Assembly: GCA_022841825.1 (NCBI GenBank)
Contig: JALHQT010000001.1
Span: 1,178,001-1,242,000, forward strand
Length of the DNA stretch: 64,000 nucleotides
DNA from: Anaerolineae bacterium
GTDB lineage: Bacteria; Chloroflexota; Anaerolineae; Aggregatilineales; Phototrophicaceae
Reading direction: 5' to 3'
Notes under the pieces: generated by a model
The model's input: the letters and a program-made list of their open reading frames with translations, nothing else
Database searches by the model: none
Told to the model about the DNA's origin: nothing
In this document: one piece after another, positions 3,471 to 64,000 of the stretch
Position numbering within the stretch: the first letter of the stretch is position 1
Layout of the letters: each line of letters opens with the position of its first letter
Made by a program: the position numbers and the translations under genes

Positions 3471-4181
3471 ATGGAAAGAGCATTCCTGCAAGTTATGTAT
3501 CCAGAAGACCGAGTATTAGTCGCTGTCATCAATCGGCAGCGCGATTTCAGACTTGCCCGTGACGAACTGTGGTACCGCATTCCGCAGGTACGTATGCCGC
3601 ACGGTATTCATGCGGATTATGTCGCATTTTTCCTGAGCGGAATCCTCAAAGATCAGCCGAGTGGCGTCCACTTCTTCACCAGCCCCGCAGGCATCGAGCT
3701 GCACTATCGCAGGAACCTGCTGCCCAAAGAGGCATCGCATCCTCGCGCTGACGAGACGTATTACCGCATTGCGCTGAATCCGCTCAAAGCAAAGATCCCG
3801 CCGATCCTCAATCCATCGCGCCGCCCTGTCACGTTCATTCATACGACGTGGGATCGATTCGTTCATGCGACACAAATACGCGATCTTTACAGCGACGCCG
3901 ATTACTACGTTGACCGCATCTACCACGCACTGCGCAACCGCGGCGTGGATGCTGATCGTTATTGGGATGCCGAACGCAAAGTAACAGGTCATTCGGCAGG
4001 GCTGCGTATCCTTTGCCAGAACGGGACCGTGGACGCACAGATCGAACCCGGCAGCGATATATTTCTTGACGCGGCGCTGCAAGATGATGTCATCCTGCGA
4101 GAAGTCCTGGACAAGATCGCCCGGCAAGGGGGACCCGTCATGCTGCCCCTCAACAATGATTTGCGACCGCCGGGTGCGTAA
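3471..4181 (+). CDS. Conserved-looking hypothetical protein
   Basis: A 236-residue soluble protein with no signal peptide or membrane helix. I do not recognise the family. It has a charged composition, a central FIHTTWDRFVHATQIRDLY stretch with aromatic and histidine residues, and several arginine-rich segments (YRIPQVRMPHG, HYRRNLLPKE). The ATG at 3471 lies 34 nt from the alternative GTG start of the divergent membrane gene, so the two may share a promoter region. The next gene, ssnA, starts 75 nt downstream on the same strand, so co-transcription is possible. No function is offered. Confidence 0.65.
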   Translation: MERAFLQVMYPEDRVLVAVINRQRDFRLARDELWYRIPQVRMPHGIHADYVAFFLSGILKDQPSGVHFFTSPAGIELHYRRNLLPKEASHPRADETYYRIALNPLKAKIPPILNPSRRPVTFIHTTWDRFVHATQIRDLYSDADYYVDRIYHALRNRGVDADRYWDAERKVTGHSAGLRILCQNGTVDAQIEPGSDIFLDAALQDDVILREVLDKIARQGGPVMLPLNNDLRPPGA

Positions 4182-4256
4182 GAGACGTGCAAACTGCACC
4201 CACGCCCGCTACAATCCAGCCATGATCCTGCTTTCCGCGCGAAGGAAGCCATCCTC

Positions 4257-5594
4257 ATGCTGATTACGAACGGCACGCTTATCACCTGGGGCGCAGCCAA
4301 CCAGGTCATCTCCGACGGCGCAGTGCTGTTGGAAGACGGTCAGATCTCCGATCTGGGCAGCGCGCGCGCGCTGGAGGAAAAGTACCCCACCGTCGAACGC
4401 CTGGACGCGCGCGGACAGCTCATCATGCCTGGTCTCATCTGCGCGCACACACACTTCTACGGGGCGTATGCGCGCGGGATGGCGATCCCTGGCGATCCGC
4501 CGCGCGACTTCCCGGAGATTCTTCGCCGCCTGTGGTGGAATCTCGACAAGGCGCTGGACGCCGACAGTGTGCGAGCCAGCGCGCAGGTCTGCCTCGTCGA
4601 TGCCATCAAACATGGCACCACGACCGTCTTTGATCACCACGCCAGCCCCAACGCCATCGACGGCAGCCTGGACATCATCGCGCGCGAGGTGGAAGATGCA
4701 GGTCTGCGCGCCGTACTCTGTTACGAGGTCAGCGACCGCGATGGTGAGGCGAGAACACAAGCTGGCATCGCCGAGAACCTGCGCTTCATGCGCGAACACA
4801 AAACACATCCACGACTGCGGGGCACGTTTGGCTTACACGCCAGCCTGTCCTTGAGCGACGCAACGCTGCGGCAGGTGGCGACAAGCCTCCATGACGACGA
4901 AGGCGTTCATATCCACGTTGCCGAGCACGAAGCCGACGAAGAAGACAGCATTGCTCAACACGGGCTGAGAGTCCTCCATCGCCTGCGAGCGCTGGGGCTG
5001 CTGCGCCCTCAGACGATTCTCGCCCACTGCGTCCATATCGACGAGGCAGAGCGCGAAGTCATCCGCACGAACGGCTGTTGGGTCACCCATCAGCCGCGCT
5101 CGAACATGAACAATGCTGTCGGCGCGATGGCATTCGATTCGATGATGAATGCCGGAATGCAGGTTTGCATCGGTAATGACGGCTTCAGCAACGCGATGTG
5201 GGAAGAATGGAAAGCAGCATACTTCCTGCACAAGTCAACCCACCGCGATCCTCGCCGTGCCAATGGAGCGCATGTCGCGCAGGCAGGCGCGCTCCACAAT
5301 GCTGCGCTGGCGTCGGCGGCGTTTGGCGTCCCGGTTGGCGCGCTGGCGGTCGGTGCCCGCGCGGACATCATCCTGGTCGATTATCACCCCTTCACACCGC
5401 TCAACAGCGGCAATCTCCCGTGGCACATTCTCTTCGGCTTCGAGCCATCCATGGTAACCACCACGATCTGTCAGGGAAAACTCCTGATGCGCGACCGAGC
5501 GCTGCTGACGATGGACGAGACACAGGTCGCGCGCGACGCGCTGGCGCTCGCACCTGGAGTGTGGGAACGCTATACACGTTTCGCCACAGGTTAA
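4257..5594 (+). CDS. ssnA: SsnA-type putative aminohydrolase (amidohydrolase superfamily)
   Basis: A 445-residue metal-dependent hydrolase of the amidohydrolase superfamily. Metal ligands are visible: His64 and His66 in HTHFYG, then IHVAEH, LAHCVHID and the late aspartate in IGNDGFSN. The overall pattern (MPGLICAHTHFYGAYARGM, DFPEILRRLWW) matches SsnA, known from purine and selenium-linked gene clusters such as E. coli ygeW-ssnA-ygfK. The start is ATG at 4257 behind GAAGGA. The exact substrate of SsnA is not established; a deaminase or ring-opening role on a purine-derived compound is likely. YgeY, its usual cluster partner, is in this window at 63124, but xdh and ygfK are not seen. Confidence 0.87.
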   Translation: MLITNGTLITWGAANQVISDGAVLLEDGQISDLGSARALEEKYPTVERLDARGQLIMPGLICAHTHFYGAYARGMAIPGDPPRDFPEILRRLWWNLDKALDADSVRASAQVCLVDAIKHGTTTVFDHHASPNAIDGSLDIIAREVEDAGLRAVLCYEVSDRDGEARTQAGIAENLRFMREHKTHPRLRGTFGLHASLSLSDATLRQVATSLHDDEGVHIHVAEHEADEEDSIAQHGLRVLHRLRALGLLRPQTILAHCVHIDEAEREVIRTNGCWVTHQPRSNMNNAVGAMAFDSMMNAGMQVCIGNDGFSNAMWEEWKAAYFLHKSTHRDPRRANGAHVAQAGALHNAALASAAFGVPVGALAVGARADIILVDYHPFTPLNSGNLPWHILFGFEPSMVTTTICQGKLLMRDRALLTMDETQVARDALALAPGVWERYTRFATG

Positions 5595-5742
5595 GAAACC
5601 ATGACGTACATCATACGAAAACCATACCATTAGTCCCGACTTTGCCGAAAACGAGTTCATAGGCATACGACCATAATCCAAAAGCACGAAATCTCGTTAG
5701 AATGTTCCATGTGCGACACGCAACCCTCGCTTGGGACACTCA

Positions 5743-6945
5743 ATGGAACAGGAAAGTCTTGTCACCCAAATTGCCCTACTGGCAATTGAAAACTCCGCAA
5801 CCTCCATCGTAGTAACCGACCCAGTGGGCACACTGCTGTATGTCAATCCAATGTTTGAACGGATGACCGGTTACAAAGGGACAGAAGTCGGGGGGCGTCC
5901 CTGTTCCTTTCTTCAGTATGACCCGGATGGTCGTCGAGAAGAACAGCCCGGTCTGAATATCGTGCGACAAGCCATGCGCGACGGCAGAGCGGCGACAACC
6001 CGACTCAGCAATTACCGCAAGTCTGGGGAACGGTTCATTGTCGAACTGACAATCTCACCACTTTTCGATAATCGGGGCGACGTCATTGGGTTCGTTGGGG
6101 TTCAGCAGGACATCACCGAACGGGTACGAGGGGAACAAGCCGTCCTCGAAAATGCCGTCTCTCAGGCGACAATGGACATGCTGCGCGAGATCTTTGGCGA
6201 CTTCAATCATGAGCTGCGCCATCCGCTCAGTCGTATCGGCGTGGCGACACATCTGGTGCGTAAATTTACCGAGGCAGGAAAAGCCGAGCAGGCACTCGAC
6301 GTAACCCGTAACATTGACCATGAAATCGGCATCATGCGCGTCATGCTTGACCGCTTCAGTCATCTGCAAAAACTCTACGGTCGCAAGCGCCATGAACCCC
6401 GACGTGTCGCCATCACGGACATCCTCGAGTCGGAAATCACGATATTTCAAGGACGCCACTCAAACATCACCCTCGAAACAGATTTCGATCCCGATGTGCC
6501 GCAGTTATGGCTTGATGTGGACGAAATTGGCTTGATGACCCGTGAACTGCTCGATAATATGACGGTCCATAATACAAACGCGGTAAAGCGGGTCAGAGTA
6601 AGCCTCGATTGCACACGCGACACGGTCTTCGTACGGTTCACAAACAACGGGCCCCCCATCGCCGAGGACAACGTTCAGCACTTGTTCCGACCGTTCTTCA
6701 GAGGTGACCGATCACGTACTGCCGACGCCACGCGGGTCGGCTTGGGGCTGTCACTCGCCGCGCGCATCGCGGAAATCCACAGCGGTCGGCTGTATCTCGA
6801 AACGACAAATCACCAGGGTTCGACGTTCACTGTCGAACTACCGGTCGAAATGCCCACCATGGATGCCAGCGCTTCATCGGAAACACAATCCAACATCGCG
6901 CTTCTGACCCAAGAGATCGCCAAGCTTGTCGCCGACAGCGATTGA
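5743..6945 (+). CDS. PAS (LOV-like) sensor histidine kinase
   Basis: A 400-residue soluble kinase. Residues 15-127 form a PAS domain closely resembling LOV photosensors: GRPCSFLQ (51-58) keeps the position of the photoactive cysteine (Cys54) and the glutamine, Asn90 sits in NYRKSGERF, and Gln121 in GVQQDITE. Two flavin contacts differ (Pro53, Ser55 for Asn, Arg) and the FWN asparagine is Val100. HisKA follows with His156 in NHELRHPL. The ATPase domain has an N box with Asn272 (ELLDN), a G1 box NNGPPI and a G2 box GLGLSLA. No membrane helix and no adjacent response regulator. ATG 5743 is preferred to TTG 5731. Composition is lower in GC than its neighbours. Confidence 0.88.
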   Translation: MEQESLVTQIALLAIENSATSIVVTDPVGTLLYVNPMFERMTGYKGTEVGGRPCSFLQYDPDGRREEQPGLNIVRQAMRDGRAATTRLSNYRKSGERFIVELTISPLFDNRGDVIGFVGVQQDITERVRGEQAVLENAVSQATMDMLREIFGDFNHELRHPLSRIGVATHLVRKFTEAGKAEQALDVTRNIDHEIGIMRVMLDRFSHLQKLYGRKRHEPRRVAITDILESEITIFQGRHSNITLETDFDPDVPQLWLDVDEIGLMTRELLDNMTVHNTNAVKRVRVSLDCTRDTVFVRFTNNGPPIAEDNVQHLFRPFFRGDRSRTADATRVGLGLSLAARIAEIHSGRLYLETTNHQGSTFTVELPVEMPTMDASASSETQSNIALLTQEIAKLVADSD

Positions 6946-7047
6946 GTGCAGAGAGCAGTGTGACACCGGCATCGCGGCTGTTGCAGCAAACGCAGCTTTG
7001 CGCTTCAATTGGTCGCCATTGTGTGCTTCAAAGAAAGATCCTCGATC

Positions 7048-7716
7048 ATGAATGATGGTTCGACACTCATCACGGTCGCCGTCCTGGGCGGCACTGGCAA
7101 AGAAGGCAGCGGTCTCGCCATGCGCTGGGCACTCAACGGCTACCGTGTCATCATCGGCAGCCGCGATGCCGAACGCGCGGCAGAAAAAGCGAAAGAGTTC
7201 AACAACACGCTTGGTGGTGATTACCTGATTGGCAAAGGCAACCCGGATGCCGCTGCCGAAGCCCAGATCGTTGTCCTCAGCGTGCCGTACAGCGCCCACA
7301 AAGACACGCTGGAAAGTGTCAAGGTGCAGTGTGAGGGCAAGATCGTCGTCGATGTCACCGTTCCACTCCAGCCTCCCAAGGTGCGCACCGTTCACATCCC
7401 GGCGGGCAAAACCGCCGCGCAGGAAACAGCAGCGATCCTCGGCGATGGTGTGCGCGTCGTATCAGCATTTCAGAACGTCAGCGCCGAAAAGATGGGCACG
7501 CCGGACTCTGTCGTCGATTGCGATGTATTGGTCACGGGCGATGACGCCGACGCAAAGACGGAAGTCATCAAGCTGGTTGAAGCAGCCGGGATGCGTGGCG
7601 TAGACGCGGGTCCGCTGGCAAATGCCGCTGCCGCCGAGTCGCTCACGCCTGTGCTGCTGTGGATCAACAAGAAGTACGGCGCTCACGGCGCGGGTATCCG
7701 CATCACGGGAATATGA
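7048..7716 (+). CDS. npdG: NADPH-dependent F420 reductase
   Basis: A 222-residue Rossmann protein that moves hydride between NADP(H) and the deazaflavin F420. VAVLGGTGKEGSGLAMRW is the nucleotide-binding loop, and IIGSR is the NADP-phosphate recognition segment that follows strand 2. The C-terminus has the family block DAGPLANAAAAESLTP. I chose ATG at 7048; the frame extends to a TTG at 7009 with no typical N-terminus. Its stop overlaps the start of cofE (ATGA at 7713-7716), so the two are translationally coupled and support each other's annotation. Confidence 0.9.
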   Translation: MNDGSTLITVAVLGGTGKEGSGLAMRWALNGYRVIIGSRDAERAAEKAKEFNNTLGGDYLIGKGNPDAAAEAQIVVLSVPYSAHKDTLESVKVQCEGKIVVDVTVPLQPPKVRTVHIPAGKTAAQETAAILGDGVRVVSAFQNVSAEKMGTPDSVVDCDVLVTGDDADAKTEVIKLVEAAGMRGVDAGPLANAAAAESLTPVLLWINKKYGAHGAGIRITGI

Positions 7717-8474
7717 TCGGTCTCACGCTGACCGCCCTGCCCGACATCCCGCTCATCGAGCCGGGTGACGACCTGGCGCGCATTGTCTATCACGCTGCTA
7801 AACGAGCGGGCATCACGTTCCTGGACGACGATGTATTGGTCGTCACCAGCAAGGTCGTCTCGAAGGCGGAGGGGCGTCGCGTGTCACTGGCGGAGATTGA
7901 GCCGGGTGACGAGGCGCAGCGGCTGGCGGCGGTCACCCGCAAAGATGCGCGCATGGTCGAGCTGGTGCTGCGCGAAAGCAGCGAGGTCAGCCGCGCCGCG
8001 CCGAACGTGCTGGTCGTGCGCCATCGCCTCGGCTTCGTCTCCGCCAATGCAGGAATTGATCAGTCGAATGTGACGGGCGACGAAGAGACTGCCCTGCTTC
8101 TTCCGCTTGATCCCGATGCCTCCGCTACCCGCATCCGCGCAGGTCTGCAAGAACTGTCAGGGGCGCAGGTCGGCGTCGTCCTCAGCGATTCACACGGGAG
8201 ACCATTCCGGATGGGCAATGTCGGTGCAGCGATTGGCGTGGCAGGCATCCCCGCGCTGCGCGACCTGCGCGGCAGCAGAGACCTGTTCGGGCGCACGCTC
8301 CGGATCACGATTCAGGGCTACGCGGATATGATCGCGTCTGCTGCCGGGCTGGTAAGCGGCGAGGGCGCGGAAGGGCTGCCCGTCATTCACATCCGGGGGC
8401 TGGTCGCGCGCGGCGAGGGAAAGGCGAGCGACCTCAATCGCCCCGCCGAACAGGACCTCTACCGAAGCAGGTGA
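7713..8474 (+). CDS. cofE: Coenzyme F420-0:L-glutamate ligase
   Basis: A 253-residue enzyme that adds glutamate residues to F420-0 using GTP. Diagnostic segments are VLVVTSKVVSKAEGR near residue 45-60, the central SANAGIDQSNV, and VVLSDSHGRPFRMGNVGAAIGVAG, which matches the CofE core. The ATG at 7713 overlaps the npdG stop by four bases. The gene ends immediately before the stop codon of the convergent ABC-F gene, with no bases between. Other F420 genes (cofC, cofD, fbiC) are not in the window. It implies that the host makes and uses F420. Confidence 0.9.
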   Translation: MIGLTLTALPDIPLIEPGDDLARIVYHAAKRAGITFLDDDVLVVTSKVVSKAEGRRVSLAEIEPGDEAQRLAAVTRKDARMVELVLRESSEVSRAAPNVLVVRHRLGFVSANAGIDQSNVTGDEETALLLPLDPDASATRIRAGLQELSGAQVGVVLSDSHGRPFRMGNVGAAIGVAGIPALRDLRGSRDLFGRTLRITIQGYADMIASAAGLVSGEGAEGLPVIHIRGLVARGEGKASDLNRPAEQDLYRSR

Positions 8475-57219: not shown

Positions 57220-58923
57220 ATGGCGAACGTCGATCTGCTCTCAGTAGCGCGCGGTGATACGCCCGCCAGCCTCGCCCTTCGTAACGCGCGTCTGGTGGAT
57301 GTCTGGGCGGGCGAAATCGTCGAGACGGACATCCTCGTTCAGGGGTCGCAGATCGCTGCGTTGGGTAAGGGGTACGCTGCACAGCGCGAGATCGATCTGC
57401 AAGGGCGCTATGTCTGCCCTGGCTTGATCGACGCGCATGTCCATATCGAGAGCAGCCTGTGCGCACCGCCGGAGTTCGCGCGCGCCATCGTGCCGCATGG
57501 CGTGACAACCGTCGTCACCGACCCGCACGAGATCGCCAACGTGCTGGGCATCGAAGGCATCCGCTACATGCTCGAACGCGCCAAAGGCGGACCGCTCAAC
57601 ATCTACGTCATGATCCCAAGCTGCGTCCCCGCCACGCATATGGAGACCAGCGGTGCGCGCCTGGAAGCGGAAGACCTGGCACCGCTGCTCGATCATCCCT
57701 GGGCGCTCGGTCTGGCGGAAGTCATGAACTATCCCGGCGTCATCTACGGCGACGAGGGGATGCTCGACAAGCTGGAACTCTTCAAGCGCAAAGTCATCGA
57801 CGGGCACTGCCCCGCCCTGACGGGCAAACCGCTCAACGCCTACGTCAGCACGGGCATCGGCAGCGACCACGAATCGACCACGCTCGAAGAAGCGCGCGAA
57901 AAGCTGCGCCTGGGGCTGACGCTCTTCCTGCGCGAAGGCACGACCACGCGCAACCTTCATGCCCTGCTGCCGCTCGTCACGCCGCTCAATCACACGCGCA
58001 TGTGCTTCTGCACCGACGACCGCCAGCCCAACACGCTGATGGACGAGGGCAGCGTCGATGACCATGTGCGCAAGTCCATCGCCTACGGAATCGACCCAAT
58101 CATGGCGATCCGGATGGGCAGCCTCAACACCGCGCAATACTTCCGACTGCATCACCTAGGCGCGGTCGCACCGGGCAAACAGGCGGACATGGTCGTGTTT
58201 TCCGATCTTCACGATTTCCGCGCCGAGATGGTCTTCCGGGCGGGAGATCTCGTCGCGCAGGATGGCGCGATGGTCGCCGACAAACCCCCACAGCGCCCCC
58301 TCTCGCTGCGCCCGTCGATGAACATTGACGTGTCACAGCTCGATCTAAGCATCCCGGCGGCAGGCGCGCAGGTGCGCGCCATCGGCGCGGTCGGCGATCA
58401 GGTTGTGACTGGCAACTGGATCGCGAATGCAAAAGTGGTGAACGGCGAGGCGGTCGCGGACATCGAGAACGACCTGCTCAAGATCGTGGTTGTCGAGCGG
58501 CATCAGGGCACGGGCAACATCGGCAAGGGCTTTATCAAGGGCTTCGGCATCACGCGCGGGGCGCTGGCGGGGACTGTCGCCCATGATCATCACAATCTCG
58601 TCATCATCGGCGCGGATGACGCCAGCATGAAGCGCGCCGCCGCCGAGGTCGCGGCGATGGGCGGCGGGCTGGCGCTGGTGGATGGCGAGACGGTCATGCG
58701 ACTGCCGCTGCCGGTTGCCGGACTGATGACCGAAGCGCCGCTGGCGGAGGTGCGGCGCGATTACGACGCGCTCAACGACCGCGCGAAGGCGATGGGCAGC
58801 ACGCTGCCGGACGCCTTCATGCTGATGAGCTTCATGGGCTTGGAGGTCATCCCATCGCTCAAGCTGACCGATTTGGGACTGGTTGATGTCGAGCAGTTCA
58901 AGCTGGTGGATGTGTTTGCGTAA
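57220..58923 (+). CDS. ade: Adenine deaminase
   Basis: A 567-residue AdeC-type deaminase converting adenine to hypoxanthine and ammonia. The metal site is His73/His75 in DAHVHIESS, with VVTDPHEIANVLG and ...CFCTDDRQPNTLMDEG as further ligand regions, plus the C-terminal DUF-like domain (HDHHNLVIIGADD, LPLPVAGLM). GGAGG lies six bases before ATG 57220. Its last 30 codons occur a second time at 60769-60858 on the far side of an AT-rich islet, so this copy's 3' end may have come with that islet. Confidence 0.95.
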   Translation: MANVDLLSVARGDTPASLALRNARLVDVWAGEIVETDILVQGSQIAALGKGYAAQREIDLQGRYVCPGLIDAHVHIESSLCAPPEFARAIVPHGVTTVVTDPHEIANVLGIEGIRYMLERAKGGPLNIYVMIPSCVPATHMETSGARLEAEDLAPLLDHPWALGLAEVMNYPGVIYGDEGMLDKLELFKRKVIDGHCPALTGKPLNAYVSTGIGSDHESTTLEEAREKLRLGLTLFLREGTTTRNLHALLPLVTPLNHTRMCFCTDDRQPNTLMDEGSVDDHVRKSIAYGIDPIMAIRMGSLNTAQYFRLHHLGAVAPGKQADMVVFSDLHDFRAEMVFRAGDLVAQDGAMVADKPPQRPLSLRPSMNIDVSQLDLSIPAAGAQVRAIGAVGDQVVTGNWIANAKVVNGEAVADIENDLLKIVVVERHQGTGNIGKGFIKGFGITRGALAGTVAHDHHNLVIIGADDASMKRAAAEVAAMGGGLALVDGETVMRLPLPVAGLMTEAPLAEVRRDYDALNDRAKAMGSTLPDAFMLMSFMGLEVIPSLKLTDLGLVDVEQFKLVDVFA

Positions 58924-59007
58924 CTTTATTGGAGAGCAAGTTAGTATCCATGCTCCAGGTTATCAGTATTTGGGGATGGTAGTATATAGCTCTATCAGGG
59001 AACATAC

Positions 59008-59024
59008 CTGTAAAATAGTTACAG
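59008..59024. promoter_or_regulatory. Palindromic operator-like site upstream of islet gene
   Basis: CTGTAA-AATAG-TTACAG is a perfect six-base inverted repeat, 25 bases before the ATG at 59050. A -10-like TAAAAT (59011-59016) lies inside it, so a bound dimer would block transcription. It may be a regulator-binding site for the islet gene. Confidence 0.45.
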
Positions 59025-59049
59025 TGTCGAGAGATTCTAGGATTGCGTC

Positions 59050-60714
59050 ATGCCGCTTCAAATGGACTTTCTGCGCTCGCTTGGATTCACGGACAACCCT
59101 TTTGCACATACCAATGCCGATCAAGAGCAAGACAGGCTACCGACCTACTTCATCCCTCCGCCATACTTCCATGACGTATTCGGCAATCCAGAATACCCTG
59201 ATTCTATCTTCGTGTTTGCGCCACGCGGAGGGGGTAAGTCAGCGCAGAGAATCATGTTAGAAAAGGAGTGCCAAGAAAAGAATGTCCTAGCATTGACTTA
59301 TGATAGCTTTGAATTCCCCAGCGTAACTTCTGCTAAAGAGGTTACACTCGAGGATCATATCGACAGAATTATACGATTTGCGCTTATGGGCCTTATGGTT
59401 ACTTTGACTGATGAGCGTCAGTTGTTAGGCAAGCTAACTCCATCTGACAAGAATATTCTTTTGCGTTTAATCGAACGCTATTTGGCGCATCTCACAGAAC
59501 CGGAATTGGAAAATGTCAAAGACGCCTTAAGGAGCATAAAGGAAAAAGCGGTTCGAATCTGGAATACCTTCTCACCGGTCGCCTCTCCGCTTATGTCCAC
59601 CCTGCTTCGGTTGCTAGGGCTGGAACTAAATGAAATCGGCAAGTTAGATGTCGATAGAAGCAGGACTAAGGACTCAAAGTACGATCTCCAACTCGTAGTG
59701 AACCTCGCGAGAAAACTCGGTTTTCTATCTATCTATGTTCTGGTAGATCGAGTTGATGAAAGCGCATTGACGGGCAATGAGGTCCCTTCTACTTTCGACT
59801 TGATCCGCCCCTTGGTGAAGGATCTGGGACTACTAGAATTTCCTGGCATTGGATTCAAATTCTTCTTGTGGGACAAACTATTGCCCGACTATCAGAAGCT
59901 TGCGCGCCAGGATCGTGTGAAGCACCGCGTTTTGTCTTGGACCGACGAAATGTTACAGGAGATGTGGAGACGTCGACTGAAAGCATTCAGCAATGACAGA
60001 ATTTGGTCACTTAACCACATTTGTGAGTCAACAGAGCCATACAATCCGGACAAACTAGCGCTCATCTTTGCAAATGGATCACCACGTGACATGATACGGA
60101 TTGGCGACAGAGTGATTTCCGAACAGCAAGAAGTCAACTCTAATTTGAGTGTAATATCGGCAACAGCAGTGTACCGCGGATTAGAGGTCTTCTGCCAAGA
60201 GCGATTGGGAGAAGTGGTACGAAACCCGAGAACTGAGAATGAGCTTCGACAAATGGGCACTATGTCACGGCAAGTTGATTATACGATTTCTTATCTCGCA
60301 AATGAGGTCTTTAAGGAAAATCAGGGATCCACACGAAACCGCCTAATGCGATGGCGCAGAGAAGGGCTGGTAGCCGAAGTGGGAAGGATCGATGTTACCT
60401 ATTCACGCCAAAAGCGACCTGTAAAGCTAATAGCCATAAACGATATACGCGTCGCACAAGTAATGTGCGCTAGTCTACCGATCACCGAATTCCTAGATCG
60501 GAAGACCAAGTCTTGCCCTAATTGCCATACCTTGGTTCTCCGCGATTGGGATACAGACGACACAATGGAAGTTTGCCATAAGTGCCGTTACAGCTGGGAT
60601 ACGGAAAGTGTTGACGAAAGAATTCAAGTAGACCTTGACTTCGACGCTGATAGTGCCACTATGGGCGCAAAACCAATTCAGCTAAAGCTGGATTTCAAAG
60701 ATGACTCGGAATAG
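59050..60714 (+). CDS. P-loop ATPase with C-terminal zinc ribbon, islet passenger
   Basis: A 554-residue soluble protein. Walker A-like APRGGGKS (57-64, Lys63), a Walker B-like LVDRVDE (231-237) as in STAND/KAP-type ATPases, and a sensor-like NGSPRDMIR (342-350). Residues about 405-450 resemble a winged helix (NRLMRWRREGLVAEVG). The C-terminus has a zinc ribbon: Cys489/Cys492 and Cys509/Cys512. The N-terminal NPFAHTNADQEQDRL and YFIPPPYF blocks look conserved. Codon usage differs strongly from neighbours, implying transfer. Similar P-loop proteins are scattered and suspected in phage defence; this assignment is inference. ATG 59062 is an alternative start. Confidence 0.82.
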   Translation: MPLQMDFLRSLGFTDNPFAHTNADQEQDRLPTYFIPPPYFHDVFGNPEYPDSIFVFAPRGGGKSAQRIMLEKECQEKNVLALTYDSFEFPSVTSAKEVTLEDHIDRIIRFALMGLMVTLTDERQLLGKLTPSDKNILLRLIERYLAHLTEPELENVKDALRSIKEKAVRIWNTFSPVASPLMSTLLRLLGLELNEIGKLDVDRSRTKDSKYDLQLVVNLARKLGFLSIYVLVDRVDESALTGNEVPSTFDLIRPLVKDLGLLEFPGIGFKFFLWDKLLPDYQKLARQDRVKHRVLSWTDEMLQEMWRRRLKAFSNDRIWSLNHICESTEPYNPDKLALIFANGSPRDMIRIGDRVISEQQEVNSNLSVISATAVYRGLEVFCQERLGEVVRNPRTENELRQMGTMSRQVDYTISYLANEVFKENQGSTRNRLMRWRREGLVAEVGRIDVTYSRQKRPVKLIAINDIRVAQVMCASLPITEFLDRKTKSCPNCHTLVLRDWDTDDTMEVCHKCRYSWDTESVDERIQVDLDFDADSATMGAKPIQLKLDFKDDSE

Positions 60715-60768
60715 AGCCATCTTTAAACTAGTCAGCGTTTTTCGTCTTGAGGCAGACCCACGACATCA

Positions 60769-60858
60769 ATGGGCTTGGAAGTCATCCCCTCGCTCAAACT
60801 GACCGACCTCGGCTTGGTCGATGTCGAGCAGTTCAGGCTGGTGGATGTGTTTGCGTAG
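60769..60858 (+). pseudogene. Orphan 3' end of adenine deaminase
   Basis: Twenty-nine codons and a TAG stop read MGLEVIPSLKLTDLGLVDVE then QFRLVDVFA, identical to the ade C-terminus except Lys to Arg. Upstream sequence has no ade similarity. Its last 26 bases overlap the 3' end of the convergent MFS gene, so the original chromosome probably had ade and the MFS gene tail to tail. It is not translated from any visible start of its own. Confidence 0.85.
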
Positions 60859-62026
60859 CGACCTGCACAGGGGTGCGTGACCAAACCAGGCTGAACACGA
60901 TCAGCAGCCCCAGCAGCAGCGCCACCGCCCCGCTGAAGATCGGGAAGGTGCCCGCCTCCGCCATGGCTCCGGCGATGATCGCCGTCAGCACATACGGGAT
61001 GCGCGTCAGCAGCGCGACGGCGGACAGCGTCGTCGCGCGGGTATTCGACGGTATGCGGTCGTTGATCAAAATCGACGACCATGTCCCCGCCAGCGACCCA
61101 CCCATACGGATAAGGATGAGTGCGCCTAAGCCCCATAGACCCAGCGGCAGCGCACCGCCCGCATAGCCTAAACCAAGCGCGACGGCGAACAGCACCATTC
61201 CACCATGCTCCGGCAGCCTCCGCCGCAGCGCCGGGATCGACCACTGCGCCAGCGCGCTGGCAAGCCCAAGCACCGCAAAGACGACCGCCTGCGCCTGGAC
61301 ATCAAATCCGAAGCCAAGCGCCATCGTCGGCGCAATCAACCCGAACGTGAACAGATAGAATGCGCCGCGCGTCCCCAGAATCAGCGGCAGAAAGCGCCGC
61401 AGCGCAGGCTGTCCCAATTCGCGAAAGCCTGCCAGCATCTGCAGGGCATAGTTACGCAGCGAAAAATGAACCTGATCTTCGACGTGCGGCTCGCGAAGCC
61501 ACAGGCAGGCAATCGCCCCGATGCCGAACGCAATACCCCAGGCATAATGCGGCAGACGTTCATTTACCATATAGAGCCAGCCACCGAGCAGAGAGGCAGT
61601 CACCATAATCGTCAGGTCGATGCTGGTGGCATTCGCCATCACCCGGTCGAAGCGCCCCTCCTGCCCCTGCTCCTTGAGTGAGTCATACGCCAGCGCCTCT
61701 GCCGCACCGGAGAAGAACGCCCAGCCGATCTGTGCGATCCAGAAGCCCACGACCAACACCCAGGTCACATCCGCCGCCCCCATGATCACAAATCCCACGC
61801 TCAGGCAGACGTTCGCCAGGATGACCGTGCGTCGCTTACCGACCAGATCGGAAATCGCGCCCGTCGGCACTTCCATCACCAAGCCGAAAGCGAACGAGAG
61901 CGCATCAACCAGCCCGACCTCGCCAAACGTCATCAGGCGCAGCCAGAAAAAGAGCCAGTTGCCGTTGATGAACGCCGCCGACTGTACCGCCGACATGATG
62001 TAGAAGATGCGAATGTTGCGATTCAT
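60833..62026 (-). CDS. Major facilitator superfamily transporter
   Basis: A 397-residue transporter with about twelve helices. The loop 2-3 MFS motif is seen in GAISDLVGKRRTVILANV, and a second half-repeat carries SILINDRIPSNTRATTLSAVALLTRIPY. No soluble domain. Such proteins with an N-terminal NIRIFYIMSAVQSAAF are usually annotated as drug or unknown-substrate exporters. ATG 62026. Its stop lies inside the orphan ade tail. The divergent GATase1-like gene begins 78 bases away. Confidence 0.85.
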   Translation of the reverse strand: MNRNIRIFYIMSAVQSAAFINGNWLFFWLRLMTFGEVGLVDALSFAFGLVMEVPTGAISDLVGKRRTVILANVCLSVGFVIMGAADVTWVLVVGFWIAQIGWAFFSGAAEALAYDSLKEQGQEGRFDRVMANATSIDLTIMVTASLLGGWLYMVNERLPHYAWGIAFGIGAIACLWLREPHVEDQVHFSLRNYALQMLAGFRELGQPALRRFLPLILGTRGAFYLFTFGLIAPTMALGFGFDVQAQAVVFAVLGLASALAQWSIPALRRRLPEHGGMVLFAVALGLGYAGGALPLGLWGLGALILIRMGGSLAGTWSSILINDRIPSNTRATTLSAVALLTRIPYVLTAIIAGAMAEAGTFPIFSGAVALLLGLLIVFSLVWSRTPVQVATQTHPPA

Positions 62027-62104
62027 GGTTGCCTACCACCAGAGGCTGTGCGTTAGTATATGCCGCAGCACAACTTGACTACATCCGACCAAAGGCTGAC
62101 GACC

Positions 62105-62860
62105 ATGCCCCCCATCCGCGTTCTGCTCGCTGGCGAATCATGGGTCTCCAACAGCACCCACTACAAAGGCTTTGACTTCTTTTCCAGCACCGTCTACGAG
62201 ACGGGCATCGCCTTTCTCGAAAAAGCGCTGCCGCCCGACGAGATCGCGCTCACGCATCTGCCAGGGCATCTCGCGGCGGCACAATTCCCGCTCACGCTGG
62301 ACGAACTGGCGGCATACGATGTCGTCATTCTGAGCGACCTGGGTGCCAACACGCTGCTGCTCCACCCCGAAACCTGGCTGCGCGGGCAGGCGATGCCCAA
62401 CCGCCTCAAGCTCCTCAAGACCTGGGTCGAAGGCGGCGGCGGGCTGGCGATGTGCGGCGGCTACATGTCATTCGCGGGCATGAGCGCCGCGGCGAAGTAC
62501 TACCGCAGCCCGATTGAAGATGCCCTGCCCGTGACGATCTTCCCCTTCGACGACCGCGTGGAGGTTCCCGAAGGCGCGCAGCCCGTCGTAGTCGATACGG
62601 CGCATCCACTGGTCGCGGGTATCAACGGCGAGTTTCCCGCGCTGCTCGGCTACAACGAACTCACGCTCAAGCCGGACGCGCATCTCGTCGCGCGCGTCGG
62701 CGATCACCCGCTGCTGGCGACGCGAGAGGTCGGCGCGGGGCGCACGTTGATCTGGTCGTCGGACATCGGTCCGCACTGGTGCCCGCCGCCCTTCCTGAGC
62801 TGGGATGGCTATGGTGTCCTCTGGCGCAATATCATGCGCTGGCTGGCAAAAGCGATCTAA
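62105..62860 (+). CDS. Class I glutamine-amidotransferase-like protein (GATase1_like)
   Basis: A 251-residue cytosolic protein. Its opening IRVLLAGESWVSNSTHYKGFD, then AYDVVILSDLGANTLLLHP and the closing SDIGPHWCPPPFLSW are characteristic of this putative amidotransferase or ThuA-like family. A nucleophile-like cysteine sits in LAMCGGYMSF, but no classic HxE partner is obvious. Reaction unknown. ATG 62105 is chosen over an in-frame 62060. YgeY follows after a 263-nt gap holding repeats. Confidence 0.78.
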   Translation: MPPIRVLLAGESWVSNSTHYKGFDFFSSTVYETGIAFLEKALPPDEIALTHLPGHLAAAQFPLTLDELAAYDVVILSDLGANTLLLHPETWLRGQAMPNRLKLLKTWVEGGGGLAMCGGYMSFAGMSAAAKYYRSPIEDALPVTIFPFDDRVEVPEGAQPVVVDTAHPLVAGINGEFPALLGYNELTLKPDAHLVARVGDHPLLATREVGAGRTLIWSSDIGPHWCPPPFLSWDGYGVLWRNIMRWLAKAI

Positions 62861-63123: not shown

Positions 63124-64000
63124 ATGATCGACCAAAGCAAGATTGACGCCATCCAGGCGCGCGTCGCTGCCCAGCGCCCCGCCATCATCAACTTCCTCAA
63201 GGAACTCTGCGCCATCCCCAGCTACGACAGCCAAATCCGCAAGGTCTGCGAACGCACCGAAGCGGAAATGCAGAAGCTCGGCTTTGACGAGGTGTTCTTC
63301 GACAGGATGGGCAATATCGTCGGGCGCATCGGCGATGGACCCAAAAAGCTGCTCTACGACAGCCATCTCGATACCGTCGGCGTCGGCGACCTCGACGCCT
63401 GGGAGTGGGACCCGTTCACGGGCAAGGAGGAGAACGGCGTCTTCTTCGCGCGCGGCGCGTGCGACGAGAAGAACAGCACCCCCGGCATGATCTACGGGCT
63501 GGCGATGGCGCGCGACCTCGGCTTACTCGATGGCTACACCGCTTACTACTTTGGCAACATGGAAGAATGGTGCGATGGCATCGCGCCGCACGCGCTGGTC
63601 GAGGCGGAGGGCATCCGCCCCGATTTGGTCGTGATCGGCGAGCCGACCAAGATGCAGGTCTATCGCGGGCACAAGGGGCGCGTCGAGATGCAGGTGGTCG
63701 CCAAGGGCAAGAGCGCCCACGCCGCCAGCAACTTCCTGGGCGATAACGCCATCTACAAGCTGCTGCCCATCATCGACGCCATCAGCAAGCTCGAACCGCA
63801 ACTCGGCGACGACCCCTTCCTCGGTCACGGGCGCATCACCGTCTCCGACATGCACGTCAAGACACCGAGCATCAACGCCGTGCCCGACGAGGCGCTGATC
63901 TACATCGACCGCCGCATCACGTTCGGCGAGGAGCCGCAGGTGGAGCTTGCACGGATCCAGAAGCTGATCGGCGACCGAACGGACATCCAGGCGTCGATCC
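63124..64000 (+). CDS. ygeY: YgeY-type M20 metallohydrolase (5' part)
   Basis: The first 292 residues of a dizinc M20-family hydrolase; it runs past the window end. Metal ligands: His81/Asp83 in YDSHLDTV, Asp114 in GACDEKNS, Glu147/Glu148 in MEEWCDG, and Glu173 in IGEPTK. The dimerisation-domain start KGRVEMQVVAKGKSAHAA is also seen. It matches the selenium-metabolism-linked hydrolase YgeY, which clusters with ssnA in other bacteria. Its substrate is unproven, perhaps an N-carbamoyl or peptide-like compound from purine breakdown. Confidence 0.87.
   Translation, partial: MIDQSKIDAIQARVAAQRPAIINFLKELCAIPSYDSQIRKVCERTEAEMQKLGFDEVFFDRMGNIVGRIGDGPKKLLYDSHLDTVGVGDLDAWEWDPFTGKEENGVFFARGACDEKNSTPGMIYGLAMARDLGLLDGYTAYYFGNMEEWCDGIAPHALVEAEGIRPDLVVIGEPTKMQVYRGHKGRVEMQVVAKGKSAHAASNFLGDNAIYKLLPIIDAISKLEPQLGDDPFLGHGRITVSDMHVKTPSINAVPDEALIYIDRRITFGEEPQVELARIQKLIGDRTDIQASI

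Follow-up and report, generated by a model that had tools for sequence, protein, structure and literature searches.

Phage 21 and e14 integrate at the 3' end of icd, and in gene-end attachment sites of this kind the homology ends at the stop codon. Another route is insertion with a long target duplication, for which the source paper is reportedly Nobusato et al. 2000. Restriction-modification genes are described as inserting with long target duplications of variable length (PMC3031569, PMC1643837, PMC4978471). Homology-facilitated illegitimate recombination has been reported for competent species and for E. coli conjugation (PMC3240628). What carries single defence genes from genome to genome when no mobile element is visible is an open question. 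Here we describe a locus of Anaerolineae bacterium (assembly GCA_022841825.1) in which a lone gene of a defence type stands directly behind ade, the gene of adenine deaminase, and is followed by a second, diverged copy of the end of ade. The window, that is, the whole stretch of DNA analysed, comprises 64,000 nucleotides (nt) of contig JALHQT010000001.1 (forward strand, positions 1,178,001-1,242,000) and has a G+C content (GC) of 59.9%.

The two copies of the ade tail are located at 58834-58922 and 60769-60857. Over these 89 nt they are 88.8% identical, and with the stop codons included (TAA in the proximal copy, TAG in the distal one) 79 of 90 positions agree. Nine sense codons differ, eight of them synonymously, and the sole amino-acid change is K to R. 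Beyond the copies the flanks are unrelated, with 11 of 40 positions matching on the left and 9 of 40 on the right. No other same-strand repeat pair of the window reaches E<=1e-5, and with an E value of 3e-26 this one is not a chance resemblance. The DNA between the copies, 1,846 nt long, has a GC of 46.2% against 59.9% for the window, and the islet gene has the lowest GC among the 48 open reading frames (ORFs) of at least 100 amino acids (aa) in the window. An earlier note on this DNA had claimed precisely such a recurrence of the last 90 nt of ade after a low-GC segment, and its account of the copies is confirmed. The features of the locus are as follows.

57220-58923, plus strand: ade, encoding a 567-aa adenine deaminase (624.3 bits with NCBIfam TIGR01178, cut-off 472.5); the proximal tail copy forms its last 90 nt
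58834-58923, plus strand: proximal tail copy, part of ade, 79/90 identical to 60769-60858; probably the incoming version
58824-58851, no strand: candidate recombinase core at the left end of the tail repeat, formed by an inverted repeat with 11-nt arms (9/11 complementary) and a 6-nt spacer (58835-58840)
58924-60768, no strand: low-GC islet, 46.2% GC
59050-60714, plus strand: P-loop ATPase, 554 aa, DS41_1_antiphage family (NF053860, 398 bits)
60759-60786, no strand: distal junction with the same 6-nt spacer, arms 7/11 complementary
60769-60858, plus strand: distal tail copy, 30 codons, TAG stop; probably the native tail; it abuts DNA of host-like GC (MFS gene, 62%)
60833-62026, minus strand: MFS transporter, 397 aa, convergent (PF07690, 74.4 bits, cut-off 33.4); overlaps the distal tail by 26 nt

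Regarding the cargo, the 554-aa protein matches the NCBIfam family NF053860 (DS41_1_antiphage) along the entire profile (1-448 of 448) with 398 bits, the cut-off being 370, and it also passes NF047389 (ATPase_Sll1717) with 104.9 bits (cut-off 75); PADLOC 2023 gave a single match, at E 0.03. The gene is present in a single copy in the host genome, and the remaining ORFs of the islet do not exceed 125 aa and overlap either this gene or ade. In the DefensePredictor study, as it describes them, 42 of 94 cloned units protected E. coli; DS-41 was among the systems tested, its anti-phage activity was shown in E. coli, and its homologues extend to Halobacteria (PMC13092281). From the family name, we infer that NF053860 corresponds to this DS-41 system, and judging by its family the 554-aa gene would serve in anti-phage defence. 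Homologues in five E. coli plasmid records are 23% identical to the islet protein, and no match was obtained with phage records, nor with viral contigs when this single protein was the query. The cut-off of the family was passed in 3 of 396 genomes of the class and in 2 of 400 of the phylum, the host being counted in both. The DS41 genes of loci L079 and L081 are also lone and of low GC (35-36%) amid GC-richer neighbours, and that of L080 is followed by two more low-GC ORFs. None of the repeats around these three genes was of the gene-tail type, and the 13 loci L079-L091 contained no tail copy.

The reading that we favour, and to which we give about an even chance of being right, is that foreign DNA carrying its own gene end and a small gene was joined to the chromosome by homologous recombination on one side and by illegitimate joining on the other. 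The incoming DNA would have come from a relative in which the 3' end of ade was followed by a DS-41-type gene. At one end, homologous recombination within ade would have kept the gene whole while giving it the incoming tail; at the other end, an illegitimate join inside the old ade tail would have left that old tail (60769-60858) before the MFS gene. This would leave ade with a replaced tail, followed by an islet with one defence gene and by the displaced native tail, which would be free to decay. A foreign proximal tail, a two-ended mechanism and DNA uptake as the route would all be parts of this reading. The left flanks are unrelated (11/40) and the edge differs from case to case, as a non-homologous join at one end would leave them. 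The proximal tail is poorer in G+C, with G or C at 4 of the 11 differing sites against 8 in the distal copy, which agrees weakly with the proximal copy being the incoming one. Furthermore, the host genome has a PF03772 Competence gene, which we take to be of the ComEC type. The earlier note had already suggested that incoming DNA restored ade with its own tail, and this idea is partly supported: the islet looks foreign, the relatives compared have no such islet at ade, and the tails differ synonymously in 8 of 9 codons, as the ends of functional genes would.

We compared the surroundings of ade in 108 loci with a complete gene, the window included and some genomes present twice; 85 of them extend at least 2 kb downstream of ade. 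A second tail of any strength, a DS-41 gene or this MFS gene near ade was found in the window only, the other tail matches being short or weak, and a search of 61 genomes likewise found a second ade tail at E<=0.001 in the host genome alone. The nearest relatives compared have ade proteins 63-73% identical to that of the host. In the nearer ones, ade follows a nudix or amidohydrolase gene and precedes a peptidase-like gene, from which it is separated by at most a few variable genes. The peptidase-like gene lies downstream of ade in 30 other loci of the 108 (at 12 to about 1,300 nt in 29 of them and at 2,283 nt in one) and is 4,201 nt away from ade in the window. An empty ade-MFS junction was not present in any of the 108 loci, and the 22 loci checked for gene order did not show the ade-MFS order either. 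The overlap of the distal copy with the convergent MFS gene, as stated in the earlier note, is therefore real (26 nt), but the accompanying idea that the original tail overlapped it in the same way finds no counterpart, since no other locus of the 108 places ade next to this MFS gene. As a separate observation, L151 has an exact second copy of the final 21 nt of ade, some 30 nt behind the stop codon.

Which of the two tails is native was also addressed by aligning both with orthologues, as the earlier note had proposed. The alignment gave no decision: at the 11 differing sites, the tails of 28 relatives matched the proximal copy 108 times and the distal copy 124 times. The changes in the window tails are distributed about evenly between the copies, 4 and 3 (3 and 4 with more outgroups), and 3 were unclear.

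The last 54 aa of ade, used as the query against 154 genomes of the order, revealed a second case at ade. Matches were obtained in 115 genomes, about a dozen of them only through a paralogue 35-51% identical, and the tail match lay in a frame of at most 35 aa in three genomes, namely the host, G800 and G782. Further tail matches lay in frames of 135-383 aa. We discarded the short tail of G782, as its contig of 7,594 nt ends right beside it. Behind the ade of G800 come, in this order, a 516-aa ORF (51% GC, neighbours about 60%), a frameshifted 219-nt copy of the ade tail (81% identity), a membrane-protein-like gene that we call m408, and a peptidase gene. Searches of Pfam, NCBIfam and PADLOC with the limits applied gave no match for the 516-aa ORF. 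Five of the 21 other loci checked (G026, G808, G323, G812 and G799) have the empty site, with ade, an m408 homologue (35-43% identical) and the peptidase gene. Changes number 20 in the downstream tail of G800 and 9 in the tail that belongs to ade, with 7 unclear; the downstream tail has the frameshifts in addition, and the ade of G800 lacks the usual stop codon at a point where the tail copy retains one. The earlier note had proposed to look for other cargo between ade and its MFS neighbour; one genome shows the same architecture at ade with different cargo, and five of its relatives have the site empty. Apart from the insertion itself, m408 is only 35-43% identical between G800 (L234) and L038, L236, L241, L247 and L253, while in four of these five relatives the ade DNA upstream of the tail is 77-82% identical to that of G800; this suggests fast change or replacement of the m408 gene.

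To look for the same scar at other genes, we took the last 50 aa of each ORF of at least 150 aa and searched for copies that did not fall within an in-frame ORF of 100 aa. The scan covered the retrieved loci, 1.17 Mb of the host contig and the window (2,333 ORFs, with overlaps and duplicate loci counted), and it was extended to 681 ORFs in 780 kb of G368. Same-strand downstream tails were found in five cases, that is, ade in the window, ade in G800 and three other genes:

L117 (CAKZKT010000050.1), 3636-5803, minus strand: parB tail duplicated over 85 nt with 89% identity, around an 833-nt insert with a nucleotidyltransferase and a HEPN protein
L130 (VGOB01000070.1), 5400-8407: 8-oxoguanine deaminase tail repeated over 97 nt with 74% identity; the insert of 1,527 nt encodes DUF6922 and AbiEii proteins as well as a third one that matches nucleotidyltransferases weakly
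G368:C1:386373-389006: tail of a putative multicopper oxidase (presumably so, from its sequence) duplicated with a terminator-like hairpin over 120 nt with 92.5% identity, around a gene for a 185-aa putative membrane protein

We take the cargo to belong to defence or toxin-antitoxin families in three of the five cases. The homology ends 1 nt before the stop in the window, 4 nt after it at parB, and 5 nt before it at the deaminase gene; in G800 it ends with the codon that precedes the distal stop. The left edge varies, the repeats being 89, 219, 85 and 97 nt long in the window, G800, parB and deaminase cases. A homology that ends near the stop codon is expected when two versions of a gene, each with its own downstream DNA, were brought together, and the variable left edge is what illegitimate joining would give. 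Two upstream tail matches were discarded, one of 17 aa in L249 and one in L153, which was read as a carbamoyltransferase pair in another frame, presumably correctly as judged from its sequence.

Regarding the frequency, the scar was seen in 2 of 115 genomes at ade and in 3 of about 2,900 other genes (p 0.013; the rates come from five cases, the denominators are rounded, and those of the scan overlap), and with the seed case of the window left out p is 0.14. Recurrence at ade amounts to one of the 114 other genomes with a tail match, with different cargo and a different edge. Therefore, the hot spot at ade that the earlier note considered in case of recurrence is not supported, because the excess at ade is not significant without the seed case and the same scar occurs at three other genes. 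Tail duplication looks like a rare, general mode of insertion, with no proven hot spot at ade. We also considered that minimal defence or toxin-antitoxin cassettes without an integrase circulate in Chloroflexota, carrying the tail of a host gene and restoring its 3' end (at ade, parB and 8-oxoguanine deaminase) through a recombinase acting in trans or a dedicated route, and we hold this to be quite improbable.

The main rival of homologous recombination coupled to an illegitimate join is site-specific integration, which we consider possible, if rather unlikely. Here a tyrosine recombinase, whether supplied in trans or lost afterwards, would have used the 6-nt spacer at 58835-58840 and 60770-60775 as the core, the attP would have carried the ade tail from that core onwards, and the proximal tail would have arrived with the element, the distal one being native. 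The inverted repeat with its 11-nt arms (9/11) and a 6-nt spacer starts 1 nt inside the homology, for which P is 0.0059: among 20,000 coding sites of the same contig, searched over the same range, 0.59% reach 9/11. The distal left arm, which is not homologous to ade, fits the inferred half-site at 7/11 (P 0.011 against the contig and 0.007 against the islet), and the end of the homology at the stop codon is also that of gene-end attachment sites. However, no integrase was found in the islet, the sole sizeable ORF of which is the DS41 gene, and the two PF00589 matches of the genome are on C4 and, at a distance of some 0.87 Mb, on C1 (the search did not extend to serine recombinases). Moreover, the edge arms of the other four tail cases reach only 5-7/11, which are usual null values, and the repeat of G800 differs in length (219 nt against 89) and starts elsewhere in ade, so the same site was not reused in the one other ade case among 154 genomes. 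The spot is itself mildly palindromic in many ade genes (at least 7/11 in 33 of 75 distinct sites), and one degenerate tail pattern searched against viral contigs had no match.

Both tails could also have one origin within the same genome, either by insertion with a long target duplication or by tandem duplication of ade and later loss, the distal copy decaying afterwards; we regard this as unlikely. The window and G800 do have a long direct repeat of the target flanking the insert (89 and 219 nt), a mode of insertion described for restriction-modification genes (PMC3031569, PMC1643837). The empty single-copy site is seen in five relatives for G800, and no compared locus has ade beside the MFS gene of the window. 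In the tail tree, the two tails of each genome are sisters, with support of 0.927 and 0.897; therefore, either the donor is closer than any compared genome or the tails arose in one lineage. The distal tail of G800 has decayed, and at parB and the oxidase gene nonsynonymous changes are as frequent as synonymous ones, as decay would give. Nevertheless, in the window tails 8 of 9 codon changes are synonymous and the changes are even between the copies, unlike the decay of an unused copy; the homology stops at or near the stop codon in four of five cases, which would not be predicted from random duplication; and no other locus of the 108 (85 of them reaching 2 kb or more downstream) has a second ade tail. 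An assembly error or a strain mixture joining two variants would be a further explanation, and the assembly does consist of 21 contigs with 2.36% contamination. We consider it extremely improbable, as the junction is internal to a contig of 1.46 Mb, no repeat able to cause a false join is shared by the flanks to the left of the two tail copies, and G800 has the same architecture with decay.

Several results also weigh against the origin that we favour, homologous recombination at one end and illegitimate joining at the other. None of the compared genomes had the donor arrangement of a DS-41 gene behind ade, the sliding identity along ade showed no breakpoint against these distant relatives, and codon usage did not distinguish the tails as native (host log-likelihood -29.1 and -30.1). 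PF03772 is also present in 10 of 14 control genomes, and the coincidence of the left edge in the window with a repeat resembling a recombinase core is left to chance. At the oxidase gene the homology extends 59 nt beyond the stop codon, and the changes are 4 synonymous and 5 nonsynonymous codons between the parB copies and 2 and 2 between the oxidase copies. Stand-alone gene heads were found as well, in 8 rows of the main scan and 4 of the G368 scan, with 36-67% identity; the two head cases that we looked at were paralogue pairs, each seen twice (a nucleotidyltransferase in L101/L050, and adjacent long ORFs near 1053173 on C1). In L114 (7380-7529 and 9217-9837, minus strand), a 50-aa middle stretch of a 206-aa ORF recurs downstream with 74% identity outside a long frame. 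A bias of tails over heads is thus not established, because head rows and this mid-gene copy also turned up.

Two further genes complete the right part of the window:

62060-62860, plus strand: GATase1-like protein, 266 aa, flanking gene (PF07090, 328.5 bits, cut-off 27)
63124-64000, plus strand: gene cut by the window end, which we take to be peptidase-like; it was matched downstream of ade in other loci

On the minus strand at 60732-60768, a frame with a C-terminus-like end finishes just left of the distal tail. It may be the remnant of a gene that, in the donor, was convergent to DS-41, and a search of the compared loci with one motif gave no other match. Elsewhere, the self-comparison of 1.17 Mb of the host contig gave 14 repeat pairs, and among the nine examined none was recognisably of the tail-scar type. 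Nearly identical palindromic repeats of 45-46 nt, 18.8 kb apart, surround DNA of 49% GC (G000:C1:158379-158423 and 177259-177304) and possibly mark an island or the end of a repeat array. A 126-nt repeat with 71% identity (G000:C1:160458-160583 and 162867-162992) surrounds 2.3 kb of 43% GC; its copies sit in short ORFs of opposite orientation, and we left it unclassed.

Where the end of a gene recurs in a diverged, synonymously changed form next to a solitary immunity gene, it may be a readable footprint of the movement of such a gene. Seen at ade, parB and the deaminase gene, with cargo of the defence or toxin-antitoxin type in three of the five cases, it offers a simple signature for genome-wide counting. 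Within the literature that we searched, a DS-41 gene carried by gene-tail duplication appears to be new: a search for adenine deaminase together with genomic island and integration site returned no paper, and, by title and start of abstract, none of the defence hot-spot papers listed concerned ade. The islet protein belongs to the NCBIfam family whose name points to DS-41, but it is distant from the E. coli plasmid homologues and is known here from its sequence. As in the defence hot spots between core genes (described in PMC10250203), variable cargo lies between conserved genes, although we see no sign of a preference for ade over other genes once the seed is omitted. The locus resembles integrative elements at the 3' ends of protein genes or tRNA genes, with which the earlier note had compared it, in a gene end that would have been restored by incoming DNA, a tail that would have been displaced downstream, the synonymous differences and, at the edge, an inverted repeat that may be core-like; it differs from them in the lack of a detected integrase, in its size of only 1.9 kb and in the absence of recurrence with the same edge. 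Insertions with long target duplication also place a small immunity module between long direct repeats of part of the target that vary in length, but here the cargo is of the DS-41 type with no restriction-modification gene, 11 of the 90 positions separate the copies, almost all of them by synonymous changes, and the repeat ends with the gene's stop codon. Of homology-facilitated illegitimate recombination, which is reported from competent species and E. coli conjugation (PMC3240628), only the presumed product is seen here; its one homologous and one illegitimate end would explain at once the full gene, the cargo and the leftover tail.

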